From a virus, in IMG/VR virus record IMGVR_UViG_3300032271_002374, positions 1 through 20,144 of that record: 20,144 nt of DNA, one strand, 5' to 3'. The notes under the pieces are model-generated. The model was given only the letters and a program-made list of their open reading frames with translations, was not told the DNA's origin and made no database searches. Of this stretch, positions 9,115 to 13,600 are shown in pieces; positions within the stretch are counted from its first letter, which is position 1, and every line of letters begins with the position of its first letter. Both the position numbers and the translations under genes were made by a program.

Positions 9115-10110
9115 ATGGCCGTCAACAAGGCTGGGATCCGCCTCACCCTCGACGATGGCACCGATTTGGCCGACAAGATCGACCCACGCTTCCTCGAGCT
9201 GACGCTGGTGGAAAAGCGCGGCGGGGAGGCCGACGAGCTGTCGCTCACGCTGCACAATCATGACGGGCAACTGCAAGCGCCCACCACCGGCCGCTACATC
9301 CGGCTCTTGCTGGGGTGGGAGAGCGGCGACGACGTTACCGTCGGCTTGGTCGACAAGGGTGCGTTCAAGGTCGACGAGGTCGAGGAAAGCGGCCCGCCTG
9401 ACAAGATCCTGATCCGCGCGCGCTCGGCCGACTTCACCGGCCCGGCGCGGCAGCGGCGCGTGAAGGTCTGGCGGGACGGAACGCTAGGCGCGATCTTGTA
9501 CATGATCGCTGCGCGCTACGGGCTGACCGCCCAGGTCCACCCTGACCTCGCCTCACTGGCGGTCGCCACGATCGAGCAGCATAACAAAAGCGACCACGCG
9601 TTCGTGCGCGATCTGGGGCAGCGCTATGACGCGGTCGCCACATGGAAAAACCGACGACTGGTTTTCATGCCCGTGGGCAGCGCCACCACTGCCACCGGGG
9701 CGGTGCTGCCGATCGTCACTATTACCCGGCAGAGTGGGTGGCAATGGTCCTGCCGTCAGGCAGATCGCGGTCGCTACGATGGCGCCGAGGCGCAATGGCA
9801 TGATCCGAGCACCGGTAATCGCCGCACCCACAAGACGTCCGGCGAAAACCGCAAGCGTCTGAAACGGGTCTATGCGAGCGAGGCCGAAGCGCGGCAGGCA
9901 ACAGCGGCAGAGGCGAAGAAGCGGGCGCGGGGGAAGCTCGCCTTTACCTATGAACTTGCGGCCGCCGATTTGCAGCTCCAGCCCAATGGGCCTGTGCAGT
10001 TGTCGGGCTGGACAGGTCCGATCGATGCAGCTTCCTGGCTGATCGAAAGCGTCGAGACATCAATGGGGGCGAGAGGGTTACGCCAGCGGCTCGAACTGGT
10101 GAGCCGCTGA
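9115..10110 (+). CDS. D: Baseplate hub / late control protein D
   Basis: The 331-residue protein is a gpD-family baseplate hub, the adaptor between tail tube and spike V. Landmarks: FLELTLVEKRGGEADELSLT near the N-terminus, GRYIRLLLGWESGDDVTVGL, the KVDEVEESGPPDKILIRARS and DFTGPARQRRVKVW segments (about 83-123), LGQRYDAVATWKNRRLVFMP and a C-terminal domain with SWLIESVETSMGARGLRQRL. The name late control reflects P2 history; the protein is structural. It is the last gene of the rightward tail operon. Its stop is only five bases from the end of the convergent DUF3037 gene, and no standard terminator is visible between them. Confidence 0.92.
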   Translation: MAVNKAGIRLTLDDGTDLADKIDPRFLELTLVEKRGGEADELSLTLHNHDGQLQAPTTGRYIRLLLGWESGDDVTVGLVDKGAFKVDEVEESGPPDKILIRARSADFTGPARQRRVKVWRDGTLGAILYMIAARYGLTAQVHPDLASLAVATIEQHNKSDHAFVRDLGQRYDAVATWKNRRLVFMPVGSATTATGAVLPIVTITRQSGWQWSCRQADRGRYDGAEAQWHDPSTGNRRTHKTSGENRKRLKRVYASEAEARQATAAEAKKRARGKLAFTYELAAADLQLQPNGPVQLSGWTGPIDAASWLIESVETSMGARGLRQRLELVSR

Positions 10111-10115
10111 CGCCT

Positions 10116-10976
10116 TCAGTGTGTCATGCCAGCGGCATGCGCCTCGTATTCATTAGCCATTTGGTCGACGAGCAGCGGAATTTCATTCTCTTCGAAGACC
10201 TCGACCCCATCGGCCTTGCTCAGCACCTTCTTCGCCTTTTCGAAGGCGCCCTTCAACTCGGGAGCCGATGGGGCGCCAAGTATGAAGTGGGGCACGAAGT
10301 GTTCGGTGGCATCTTGGACCGATTGAAGATTGCCAAGCCAGCGCCGGGCCTTCTCCATAATTCTGTCCGCGTCTGCCAGATCCAGCGAGAGCGGCTCGTA
10401 GGCATGCCACACGCCGTTCTTCCAGGCATGCTTGAACTCGATGGTATCGTCGGCCGCTACGATTGTCTTCGTTTCCAGCGGGACGTTGATTTCCCGCTGC
10501 TCGAGCATTTCGCGGACGGGACGCCAAACGTCATCGTCGGTGCGACGCGCTGAGCCAGCGGTTTCGTATTTTCCCACGAATCTTTGGTAGATGCGTTCGA
10601 ACGTCTTCTCGAGTGAGGAGGAAACACCACTGGATGCATGCGACCAACGCAATGAGCTATCGTTGTTCTGCATGATGGTCCGAATCACGGAGTCGATCTG
10701 CAGATTGCCGTCCAGCAAGTCCTGCTTTTGAAAGCGCGTCTTGGCCCGTTCGATCGCACGATCCATCATGTGCATCGTGTCCAGGAAGGCGGCGCGGGTG
10801 AGACTTGGAAACATCTGGCGGAACCGGCCAATTCGATGGGTCGTTTTCGCAAGCAACACAGCGGGATCGCAGCCCACCGACGGCGCGATCAAGATGACCC
10901 CCACGTTCACGAACTCCGCCGAGATCGGATCATGGACGTACCGCAGGGTCACATATGAGTAGGAGCGCTCGTTCAT
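10116..10976 (-). CDS. DUF3037-family protein, partner of HipA-like kinase
   Basis: The 286-residue protein starts MNERSYSYVTLRYVHDPISA, followed by EFVNVGVILIAP: the conserved N-terminal pattern of DUF3037. No signal peptide or membrane segment is visible. The middle is charged and helical; the C-terminus has FVPHFILGAPSAPELKGAF. The biochemical role is unknown. Its start overlaps the stop of the kinase gene by ATGA, with AAGGG seven bases upstream, so the two are translationally coupled. Genes of these two families commonly occur side by side in bacteria, from general knowledge. It could be the kinase's substrate, regulator or antitoxin; this is inference. Local GC is about 55% in a sampled line, lower than the tail genes, suggesting separate acquisition. 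Confidence 0.78.
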   Translation of the reverse strand: MNERSYSYVTLRYVHDPISAEFVNVGVILIAPSVGCDPAVLLAKTTHRIGRFRQMFPSLTRAAFLDTMHMMDRAIERAKTRFQKQDLLDGNLQIDSVIRTIMQNNDSSLRWSHASSGVSSSLEKTFERIYQRFVGKYETAGSARRTDDDVWRPVREMLEQREINVPLETKTIVAADDTIEFKHAWKNGVWHAYEPLSLDLADADRIMEKARRWLGNLQSVQDATEHFVPHFILGAPSAPELKGAFEKAKKVLSKADGVEVFEENEIPLLVDQMANEYEAHAAGMTH

Positions 10977-11761
10977 GCCAGAACCCTTCTCAGCTCTTCA
11001 ATCAGCCCTTCGATGTTGTCTCGCGCGCGTCTAATCTGCAATCGCGCATCCGTTACCACCGCACCTGATCCCAGCCATTCCATTGGCAGATCGCGCCCAT
11101 AGTCGTCGATCATGCCATCGGACAAGCTTTTCCAGCGTTCAACGACCGGCGCCCAGTCCACGTTCCGCCGACGCAATGCGTCGGCGAAGATCTGGACGCC
11201 AGGCGCCTCAAAGGCTCGCAAACCTCCCGGCGCCCAAGGCTTCGGTCCGAGCAGGAACTGAGGAAAGCACAATTCATGATCGAAAACGTAAAAGCTCTCC
11301 CCGGAACGTATGCAGTTGACGTTCCCCCCGCGCCGATCGCTGTTTTCAATTGCAGAGTCGAAGGCCAAAGCCGCGGCGACATCAGCGGTCATCTGTTCGC
11401 TCATCGTCAAAGGCGGGAGCCAATCTACATAGCCCCCGCCGATGAACCTTGATCCGAATGCGACCAGTGAACCACTTGCAGCACGCGCAACCCATGCTCG
11501 ATCGAGCAAGCTGTTGAGCCACTGCGACGACATGTCGACATAAAATGGCTCTGGAACCTTGATACCAAGATCATAGGCCAGCTGAGCGCAGATGATTTCG
11601 CAGGCTAACCCCACGACACCCCTATCGCATCCACCCGCAGGCTTCAGTACCAACTCGACGTCGCTGCCATCGCTGGCTTCAGCGACAATGATGCCTGGAG
11701 TGGTACGTCCCGCTATGGTCTTCTGATAGAATTCGACGGCACGGACACGTCTAATCACCAT
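10973..11761 (-). CDS. HipA-family kinase (HipA_2 type)
   Basis: With the ATG at 11761 (AGAAGGGGG just upstream) the protein has 262 residues; a longer frame from 11821 adds 20 residues without better support. Kinase features: VELVLKPAGG with probable ATP-binding Lys40, an AFDSAIENSDRRGGNVN catalytic loop with Asp142 and Asn147, and FYVFDHELCF with metal-binding Asp161. This corresponds to the HipA-like kinase domain found as a stand-alone protein, lacking the N-terminal HipB-contact domain of E. coli HipA (440 residues). HipA itself phosphorylates a tRNA synthetase; the target here is unknown. It is coupled to the DUF3037 gene and is part of the repressor-led minus-strand operon. GC is low (about 47% in a sampled line). 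Confidence 0.78.
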   Translation of the reverse strand: MVIRRVRAVEFYQKTIAGRTTPGIIVAEASDGSDVELVLKPAGGCDRGVVGLACEIICAQLAYDLGIKVPEPFYVDMSSQWLNSLLDRAWVARAASGSLVAFGSRFIGGGYVDWLPPLTMSEQMTADVAAALAFDSAIENSDRRGGNVNCIRSGESFYVFDHELCFPQFLLGPKPWAPGGLRAFEAPGVQIFADALRRRNVDWAPVVERWKSLSDGMIDDYGRDLPMEWLGSGAVVTDARLQIRRARDNIEGLIEELRRVLA

Positions 11762-11851: not shown

Positions 11852-12370
11852 TCAACACGCCCCAGCCTTCTTTGCGCCATAGGTGGCCTGACTCACGGTG
11901 TACTTGTCCCCTGCCCGCGACGAGAGCTGGTTGATCAAGCCCTTGCACGAGAAGCCCTGCATGCTGAGGTATTGCTTCGCGGATTCCGCCGCCTGTTCGT
12001 TCCAATCGACGTCCATGCTGTCGACTGCAGCGGTCGCATCCGCGACATCGTAACCATCACCGGCCCGTGACGAGAGCTGGTTGATCAGTCCGTTGCGCGA
12101 AAAGCCCTGCATGCTGAGGTACTGCTTGGCCGAGCGAAGCGCGTTCTCCTGCGGCCCGGTGAGCGACGGCGTGGGCTTCTCGGCCACCTGTGTTGCGGCG
12201 GAGGCACCACTGGCGGGCTGATCAATTGCTGCAGCCACCGGTGCCTTTCCGGTCCCGTTCTTGTCGCCGACGATCGCGCCGATGATCCCCAGCGCGACGA
12301 AAGCCCCAATCACGCCAAGGCATCCGATGCCCAGCTTTTTGCCCCAGCCCATCTTTTTTGGTTCAGTCAC
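11852..12370 (-). CDS. Ltp-repeat membrane protein, possible superinfection exclusion
   Basis: The 172-residue protein has a basic N-terminus, a membrane anchor at about residues 13-35 (LGIGCLGVIGAFVALGIIGA), an Ala/Pro/Thr linker, then two copies of a helical domain at about 76-125 and 127-170. Each has AKQYLSMQGFS, then GLINQLSSRAGD. This is the Ltp-type repeat (Pfam PF07553), best known from the lipoprotein of Streptococcus thermophilus phage TP-J34, which blocks DNA injection by incoming phages. No proper lipobox is seen, so this version is anchored by a helix, not by lipid. GTG start at 12370 has AGGGGA seven bases upstream. It is 15 bases after the HIRAN gene in the lysogenic operon. 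Exclusion is inferred from family and context. Confidence 0.72.
   Translation of the reverse strand: MTEPKKMGWGKKLGIGCLGVIGAFVALGIIGAIVGDKNGTGKAPVAAAIDQPASGASAATQVAEKPTPSLTGPQENALRSAKQYLSMQGFSRNGLINQLSSRAGDGYDVADATAAVDSMDVDWNEQAAESAKQYLSMQGFSCKGLINQLSSRAGDKYTVSQATYGAKKAGAC
11906..11980 (-). repeat. Direct repeat copy 2 within the Ltp gene
   Basis: This 75-base unit encodes residues 131-155 and matches the unit at 12056-12130 in 64 of 75 positions by hand comparison. The copies are spaced exactly 150 bases (50 codons) apart. The high nucleotide identity points to a fairly recent internal duplication or to gene conversion. Confidence 0.8.
12056..12130 (-). repeat. Direct repeat copy 1 within the Ltp gene
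   Basis: Partner of the unit at 11906-11980; encodes residues 81-105 of the same protein. Only conservative changes separate the encoded segments (for example SRNG versus SCKG). Confidence 0.8.
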
Positions 12371-12385: not shown

Positions 12386-12823
12386 TCAGTAATCATCCCA
12401 GACCGGATCCGGGAAAAACCCCGGATCATGGTCGAAATCTGCTCGCGGTTCTTGCCCCCGCTCATCCAGTGCCGGCTCAAACTCGACCGCCGGCACAGCG
12501 CCATTAAACGCGACGCGGATCCACGCGCCGAACGGCGAAGGTCGCTGGAAGACGGCCTGGATCTCGATGCCTGATGCGATCAGACTGCCGATGCGGCCAC
12601 ACCGTTCGGCCGTCAGGTAACCTAGCTGGACGCCTCGCACGGAAAACACTGCCACCGCCCGGCTGTCGTGGCGATTGCGCGGCTCAGGGCGCAGCTCGAC
12701 CATCTCGCCGGGCTTGCACAACAGGATTTCAAAGCGACGGTCTGAGCCGTCACGGTTGGCATGGTCCGCACCGACCACGGCCAGCGACATCGCGGGGAGC
12801 GGAGCCGCAGGCGCCTGGGTCAT
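12386..12823 (-). CDS. HIRAN-domain protein
   Basis: The 145-residue protein is almost entirely a HIRAN domain (about residues 13-110): SLAVVGADHANRDGSDRRFE, CKPGEMVELRPEPRNRHDSR and AVAVFSVRGVQLGYLTAERC. HIRAN domains bind DNA ends, notably 3' single-stranded ends in the eukaryotic remodeller HLTF, and also occur alone in bacteria and phages. A short acidic C-terminal tail follows (residues about 115-145). The ATG overlaps the stop of the repressor gene (ATGA), so it is made together with the repressor. A role in sensing or handling damaged DNA, or in prophage induction, is possible but not shown. Confidence 0.82.
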   Translation of the reverse strand: MTQAPAAPLPAMSLAVVGADHANRDGSDRRFEILLCKPGEMVELRPEPRNRHDSRAVAVFSVRGVQLGYLTAERCGRIGSLIASGIEIQAVFQRPSPFGAWIRVAFNGAVPAVEFEPALDERGQEPRADFDHDPGFFPDPVWDDY

Positions 12824-13506
12824 AGTTTCCGGACGACGGCCACCACCCGGCCGACGATGTGCAGTTCGCCGTCGGTAGCGCGCGCGTCGCGGACGAGCTG
12901 GTTGTCGGAGCTGATCTGCATCGAGCCGTCCGGCAGCTGGCGCAGGCGCTTGATCATGGCCATGCCGCCGTAGACGATCGCCCAGATCTTGTCGCCAAAC
13001 TCGGGCACGCGCTCCGACTTGTCGACCACCACGATGTCGTGATCCGAGATCGTCGGTGACATCGAATCTCCGATACCCTTGGTCGTGAAGAGATGGCTCG
13101 GCGCCGACTGGGTAAACTGGCGAAGCCAGCGACGCGAAAAGCCTACCTTCTCTGCATCCACGTGATCGGTGTCTGTGAACGTACCGCCCAAGCCGTAAGC
13201 GAAGTCGATCAGGTCGATTTCCACCTGATCGGCATCCGGCTCGGGCACGGCCGTTGCGCGAGGTTTGGAACCCCCGCCCGAAAGCGGAGGCTGTTCGCCA
13301 CCGTCGGCGACCTCAGTCTCGTCCATTAGATATTCGGAGGTCGTGCCAAGCTCACGTGCAATCCGGTGGGTATGCTTAGAGCCTTGTGCCGGCTCGTTGA
13401 GCAGTTTCCAGATGGTTGTGGCAGACACGCCTACGCGCCTTGCCAGCTCACTCTGGCTAACGTCGTGGGCTGCCATCAAGGCAAGAAGTCGATCGCTTCG
13501 AAACAC
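12820..13506 (-). CDS. CI/LexA-like prophage repressor with S24 peptidase domain
   Basis: The GTG at 13506 gives 228 residues and a start just downstream of an operator, with TAGGG eight bases upstream; the open frame reaches 13635, but that would run through both operators. An N-terminal helix-turn-helix is at about residues 17-37 (QSELARRVGVSATTIWKLLN). The C-terminal S24 domain has GIGDSMSPT with Ser148 and MIKRL with Lys186, the usual spacing of the catalytic pair. No Ala-Gly or Cys-Gly cleavage dipeptide is seen in the linker, so self-cleavage is uncertain. It should bind the CAACCATGGTTG sites, block the early genes at right, and drive the lysogenic operon at left. Confidence 0.88.
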   Translation of the reverse strand: MFRSDRLLALMAAHDVSQSELARRVGVSATTIWKLLNEPAQGSKHTHRIARELGTTSEYLMDETEVADGGEQPPLSGGGSKPRATAVPEPDADQVEIDLIDFAYGLGGTFTDTDHVDAEKVGFSRRWLRQFTQSAPSHLFTTKGIGDSMSPTISDHDIVVVDKSERVPEFGDKIWAIVYGGMAMIKRLRQLPDGSMQISSDNQLVRDARATDGELHIVGRVVAVVRKL

Positions 13507-13591
13507 GGTCGGAACCCTACAACCATGGTTGAAATCTGCGATCCAAGTTTTGTTGTTGCATGCACCTGCAACTTTGGGTAAATCTTCAACC
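13507..13591. promoter_or_regulatory. Divergent repressor/cro control region
   Basis: This 85-base stretch separates the minus-strand repressor start from the plus-strand cro start and must contain both promoters. It is more AT-rich than its flanks. It holds one operator palindrome and most of a second, plus an inverted repeat GTTGCA (13555-13560) / TGCAAC (13567-13572) midway between them. A rightward promoter could use TTGCAT (13556-13561) and TAAATC (13579-13584) at 17-base spacing, but the match to consensus is weak. No leftward promoter boxes were chosen with confidence. Confidence 0.7.
13520..13531. promoter_or_regulatory. Operator palindrome, repressor-proximal
   Basis: The perfect 12-base palindrome CAACCATGGTTG lies 14 bases upstream of the repressor start. 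The same core recurs at 13587-13598. Two identical palindromes between divergent regulators are typical of repressor operators, so this is the likely site of autoregulation. Binding is inferred. Confidence 0.75.
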
Positions 13592-13600
13592 ATGGTTGAA
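13585..13600. promoter_or_regulatory. Operator palindrome containing the cro start codon
   Basis: The perfect 16-base palindrome TTCAACCATGGTTGAA shares its 12-base core with the other operator, centre-to-centre 67 bases away. The ATG at its centre (13592-13594) is the best start of the Cro-like gene, so the operator extends into the coding sequence. Repressor bound here would cover the translation start region of the early operon. Confidence 0.78.

Follow-up and report, generated by a model that had tools for sequence, protein, structure and literature searches.

The closest described relatives of the locus analyzed here are two defence systems in which a kinase gene is coupled to a gene for a DUF3037 protein. 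In the Retron-Sda1 operon, deletion of the kinase abolishes defence against phage Bas51 and deletion of the DUF3037 gene is toxic, with the reverse transcriptase and ncRNA being dispensable for defence (PMC12548924). In E. coli DS-6, since renamed HipAD, mutation of the kinase site leads to loss of defence, and an AlphaFold3 model of the kinase–DUF3037 complex has an ipTM of 0.76-0.79 (PMC13092281); for HipAD, that paper cites Brenes & Laub 2025, a study of defence systems in the prophages of E. coli.

The DNA considered here, henceforth the window, is a 20,144-base IMG/VR virus record. Tail genes of P2 type (base-plate V, sheath, tube, tape measure, U and D) occupy its left part; to their right lies a minus-strand block, beyond which come early genes on the plus strand, a primase and an integrase. 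Read 5'->3', the minus-strand block encodes an S24 repressor, a HIRAN protein, an Ltp-type lipoprotein, a HipA_2 kinase and a DUF3037 protein:

9115..10110, plus strand: P2 gene D-type tail protein (phrog_52, 5.6e-99), the left border of the cargo slot
10116..10976, minus strand: DUF3037 protein (HipAD / PDC-M66B), predicted neutraliser, 286 aa (PF11236, 7.9e-14)
10973..10976, minus strand: ATGA start/stop overlap of the kinase and DUF3037 genes, read from the sequence
10973..11761, minus strand: HipA_2-family kinase (HipAD / PDC-M66A), predicted toxin, 262 aa (PF20613, 5.7e-12)
11852..12370, minus strand: Ltp-type lipoprotein of a superinfection-exclusion family (PF07553, 2.6e-28; phrog_15667, 1.1e-47)
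12386..12823, minus strand: HIRAN-domain protein, 145 aa (PF08797, 2.2e-11, its sole Pfam match)
12820..13506, minus strand: S24 CI-like repressor (PF00717, 3e-16; phrog_4, 3.1e-39)
13518..13533, no strand assigned: putative repressor operator 1, a 16-base palindrome with one mismatch
13585..13600, no strand assigned: putative repressor operator 2, the perfect palindrome TTCAACCATGGTTGAA

The kinase and the DUF3037 protein

The pair presents the features by which HipAD is recognized: the kinase gene comes first with the DUF3037 gene adjacent to it; both products match their PADLOC families over nearly their full length (kinase against PDC-M66A, 2.3e-53, residues 3-261; DUF3037 protein against PDC-M66B, 1.3e-77, residues 4-281); and the active site of the kinase is intact. 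The two proteins also match PHROGs families without an assigned function, phrog_3162 and phrog_5137, respectively. Hence, on sequence grounds, it is well supported that the window carries a new example of the known HipAD (PDC-M66) system and not a new system. A first-pass annotation of this DNA had credited such pairs with no established function, a statement now outdated, as the DS-6/HipAD and Retron-Sda1 homologues have been tested as phage defence.

At the level of the genes that annotation fared better. The ATGA overlap of the two genes beside gene D of a P2-like prophage is confirmed from the sequence, the ORFs, Pfam and phrog_52, with gene D ending (10110) 6 bases from the stop of the convergent DUF3037 gene. 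The four kinase residues it had listed as intact, namely Lys40, Asp142, Asn147 and Asp161, are all present; K40 and D142 are invariant across 28 aligned relatives, as are E55, D135, N140 and R143, with N147, N149, D161 and H162 being at least 90% conserved in the same set. The lower GC that it had noted for the pair is a real contrast, but its size was overstated: the pair stands at 57% against 66% in the tail genes, with 60-base lines ranging from 45 to 70%, and the neighbouring repressor is likewise low at 59%.

An AlphaFold2 model of the kinase (pLDDT 93, pTM 0.92) retrieves PI4K-II-alpha, CtkA and HipA in Foldseek searches, and a profile search with the kinase family recovers HipT, HipA_C-domain proteins and PI4K by sequence. 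The model of the DUF3037 protein combines good local confidence (pLDDT 90.5) with low global confidence (pTM 0.58). Its C-terminal half displays an alpha-beta-beta-beta-alpha-beta layout, as in the PD-(D/E)XK fold, and in the model looks like a degenerate fold of this type. Its Foldseek matches are weak (Can2/Card1, an fdxN excision factor, BstEII and Shedu, with 3.8e-3 as the best E and no match under 0.001), and sequence searches yielded no convincing solved structure for the family. We considered an active nuclease in view of this layout and these matches, and rejected it on account of an EFK motif that is not conserved in relatives, where it is replaced by EFR, EFQ or KFD; because the motif varies, we make no catalytic claim for the protein. 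That it binds DNA or a partner is a guess.

Coupling and distribution of the pair

The kinase and the DUF3037 protein co-evolve as one unit: in a mirror-tree comparison of 26 pairs their distances correlate with r=0.95, the best of 2000 permutations reaching 0.28, and within the core clade r=0.97, with 0 of 2000 permutations as high. The 4-base overlap recurs in the nearest relatives (L001-L005, L007, L086, L090 and L092-L095), the ORF limits in relatives being six-frame ORF calls made in this analysis. Across 398 sampled Pseudomonadota species, 23 encode DUF3037, with an adjacent HipA_2 gene in 23/23, some by weak matches; across 385 sampled alphaproteobacterial species, DUF3037 occurs in two. 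One of these two alphaproteobacterial DUF3037 proteins (L018) shows no HipA_2 match within the 3.3 kb examined. Neither the window kinase nor the window DUF3037 protein found a match among 50,697 phage records; a relative led to one diverged pair in a Klebsiella phage.

Residence mostly in core housekeeping operons was what the first-pass annotation had named as telling against its own reading, and this is not the case: the chromosomal copies of the long class share no flanking genes between loci and the presence of the pair is patchy (2/385 and 23/398 in the samples above), whereby we rejected a housekeeping operon. The nearest kin of the pair are located within restriction operons or behind a phage repressor, several of the nearest non-repressor kin adjoining type I or type III restriction–modification (R-M) genes. 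The proteins flanking chromosomal HipAD pairs are rich in matches to defence families, with 166 PADLOC families matched in 67 flanking proteins versus 26 in 61 control-region proteins of the same genomes, a rough contrast in that one protein can match many families and the control regions included one real restriction-like gene. The PDC-M66A/B matches, the tested homologues, the defence-gene slot described below and the absence of a conserved housekeeping neighbourhood support that annotation's suggestion of a two-gene toxin–antitoxin or anti-phage module carried as prophage cargo.

As a separate observation, in five loci (L087-L090 and L009) the HipAD pair directly follows the type I specificity gene within a type I R-M locus, the R-M calls being by named hsdR/M/S genes for L087, by M/S for L009 and by matching layout for L088-L090.

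A module of this kind might act mainly as a prophage addiction toxin–antitoxin, such that loss of the prophage would entail loss of a labile DUF3037 protein and poisoning of the cell by the kinase, with defence as a by-product. We hold this to be quite unlikely: toxin–antitoxin behaviour in a homologue and placement on a mobile element agree with it, but homologues are also chromosomal and sit inside type I/III R-M operons, many defence genes fill the corresponding slot in relatives, and defence by DS-6 requires kinase activity.

A variable slot from gene D to the repressor

Relatives of gene D were found in 40 viral loci. From this gene D set and from loci found via the repressor, with two contigs common to both sets, we obtained 38 gene D-to-repressor slots with ORFs, which span 410-5094 bases and hold 30 distinct contents and 61 protein clusters. 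The slots of related loci contain IetS, beta and cll (Gop-beta-cll), PDC-M53A, NACHT, an HD-CE/HSP90-type ATPase and a STAND NTPase; the Ltp gene (also in L041, L049, L055, L064 and L065) and the HIRAN gene recur across slots; and HipA/DUF3037 was found in none of these slots other than that of the window. The gene D-repressor interval is a variable defence-cargo hotspot of this P2-like family.

Some of the individual slot proteins merit mention in their own right. The NACHT protein at L073:7903-11820 (1305 aa) has a weak N-terminal TIR-type match. At L074:4744-7446, and also in L079, L083 and L084, the slot encodes a 900-aa protein with HD-CE and HSP90-type ATPase domains alongside two small partner proteins; no PADLOC family matches it over its full length. 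Proteins of 280-423 aa at L046:9009-9851, L051:8581-9492, L053:9580-10596 and L077:8990-10261 have no Pfam or PADLOC matches and are candidates for new defence genes.

Repeated placement after repressors

The pair is co-directional with the genes for the S24 repressor, the HIRAN protein and the Ltp superinfection-exclusion-type lipoprotein. The longest ORF of the repressor extends to 13635, but its start is probably the GTG at 13506, with relatives aligning from residue 44-48. The palindrome TTCAACCATGGTTGAA occurs at two sites in the window, where chance would give 0.03; they lie where the repressor gene and a small, divergent Cro/YdaS-like HTH ORF (ATG 13591, plus strand) begin, and these two copies are probable repressor operators. 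Because the palindromes lie at both of these gene starts, and in keeping with the gene order, it is plausible that the minus-strand block forms a repressor operon and is expressed in the lysogen. A scan for sigma-70-type promoters found none in the region, and is ill suited to alphaproteobacteria, hence uninformative.

Similar placements recur elsewhere. The sister pair of the window pair (L086) has a related repressor on one side and, directly after DUF3037, a HIRAN gene on the other; no tail genes of P2 type were seen in that locus. In the Klebsiella phage and in E. coli prophages, a homologous pair lies immediately 3' of an S24 repressor, the position of lambda rexAB; in E. coli EC9 a lambdoid prophage has it directly behind its S24 repressor. 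A repressor-adjacent pair is present in 283 of 5426 complete E. coli genomes (~5%), one E. coli locus having been inspected along its whole length. The repressor-linked pairs fall into more than one clade of the tree (three changes; p-AU 1.3e-6, with the long-branch L114 included). Thus, judged from this phylogeny, the repressor-linked placement arose independently at least twice, and three times if L114 is trusted.

This repeated capture into repressor operons is best explained by the pair having to be expressed in the lysogen; HipAD could conceivably be tied to the repressor in function. One form of such a tie would have the pair act with its operon, the kinase or DUF3037 protein targeting either the repressor or the decision to induce, or cleavage of the repressor freeing the kinase. 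The occurrence of an S24 repressor upstream of the pair in lineages outside one clade, per the above test with L114, is consistent with this. However, most homologues have no repressor neighbour, and the position after the repressor suits any gene needing expression in the lysogen, as exemplified by rexAB of lambda; we regard this form as very unlikely. More broadly, unrelated prophages might have taken HipAD into their repressor operons repeatedly and independently because what frees it depends on the repressor or on lysogeny itself, in which case it would be a sensor linked to lysogeny and not a defence pair of general use; for example, an incoming phage could disturb the resident repressor, upon which HipAD would fire. 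This we view as an unlikely extension.

As to the neighbours of the repressor, HIRAN genes lie beside or near it in L046, L047, L049, L050, L054, L055, L059, L061, L077, L085 and L086, often with a 4-base overlap. It is extremely improbable that the module includes the HIRAN protein as a third part, in the manner of the HipN/HipL families, whose Hip proteins carry a fused HIRAN (PMC8262856): the protein does sit in the window operon and directly 3' of DUF3037 in the sister locus, but it shows no HipS-like domain by Pfam, accompanies the repressor without HipA in about 12 relatives, and has no counterpart by HIRAN match beside the other HipAD pairs checked, so that a place for it in the module is not supported.

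Proposed mode of action and significance

We propose, with good though not full confidence, that the pair is a lysogen-expressed kinase-toxin abortive-infection module of the HipAD type. The proposal starts from what is direct here, viz., the genes, their coupling, the kinase motifs and fold, the co-evolution, the slot setting and the homology to tested systems, from which we infer the activity of the window copy and its expression, complex, trigger, target and abortive outcome. Briefly, by analogy with the tested homologues, the HipA_2 protein would be a toxic protein kinase that is bound and restrained by the DUF3037 protein. A lysogen probably makes both from the distal end of the repressor operon. 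A second phage, on infecting the cell, might then upset the restraint by DUF3037, and the freed kinase would phosphorylate a host target to stop growth. The incoming phage could consequently not multiply, and the remaining population would survive along with its prophage.

These findings add a family of P2-like prophages to the settings of a kinase-based defence pair that was described recently, define the gene D-repressor interval as a defence-cargo slot of this family, and point to the unnamed proteins of the slot as candidate new defence genes. The most interesting point is that HipAD has come into repressor operons on more than one occasion; the locus is otherwise ordinary in kind.

Comparison with known systems

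P2, P4 and Vibrio K139-like prophages carry published defence hotspots (PMC9122126), which the slot of the window family resembles in being a variable interval of 1-5 kb, flanked by two conserved phage genes and filled with defence genes. The borders differ: gpA-gpQ next to cos in E. coli P2 and cI-integrase in the K139-like prophages, as against gene D-repressor here. With lambda rexAB the pair shares the status of prophage cargo downstream of, and co-directional with, the repressor, but the HipAD proteins are unrelated to RexAB.

HipBA and HipBST share with the pair a HipA/PI4K-like kinase fold and active-site motif, the kinase being the toxin in those systems. In contrast, the window kinase has 262 aa and its predicted neutraliser is encoded downstream and belongs to a different family: the partner is DUF3037, with no HTH match, and the operon neighbours include no HipS-like small antitoxin or HipB match. 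Retron-Sda1 contains the same two-gene module, in which defence is retron-independent, the kinase is the toxin and DUF3037 the neutraliser, whereas no reverse transcriptase or ncRNA was seen in the window.

The closest likeness is to HipAD/DS-6/PDC-M66, with the same two families, the same gene order, overlapping genes and PDC-M66 matches; the likeness to the tested DS-6 and Sda1 pairs is by family and published description, the identities being measured against the E. coli prophage pair, to which the window pair is only ~20-24% identical. The DUF1829 domain reported for DS-6B was not found by Pfam in the window protein. Finally, unlike the E. coli HipAD prophages, the element in the window is P2-like, with the HIRAN and Ltp genes separating the repressor from the pair.
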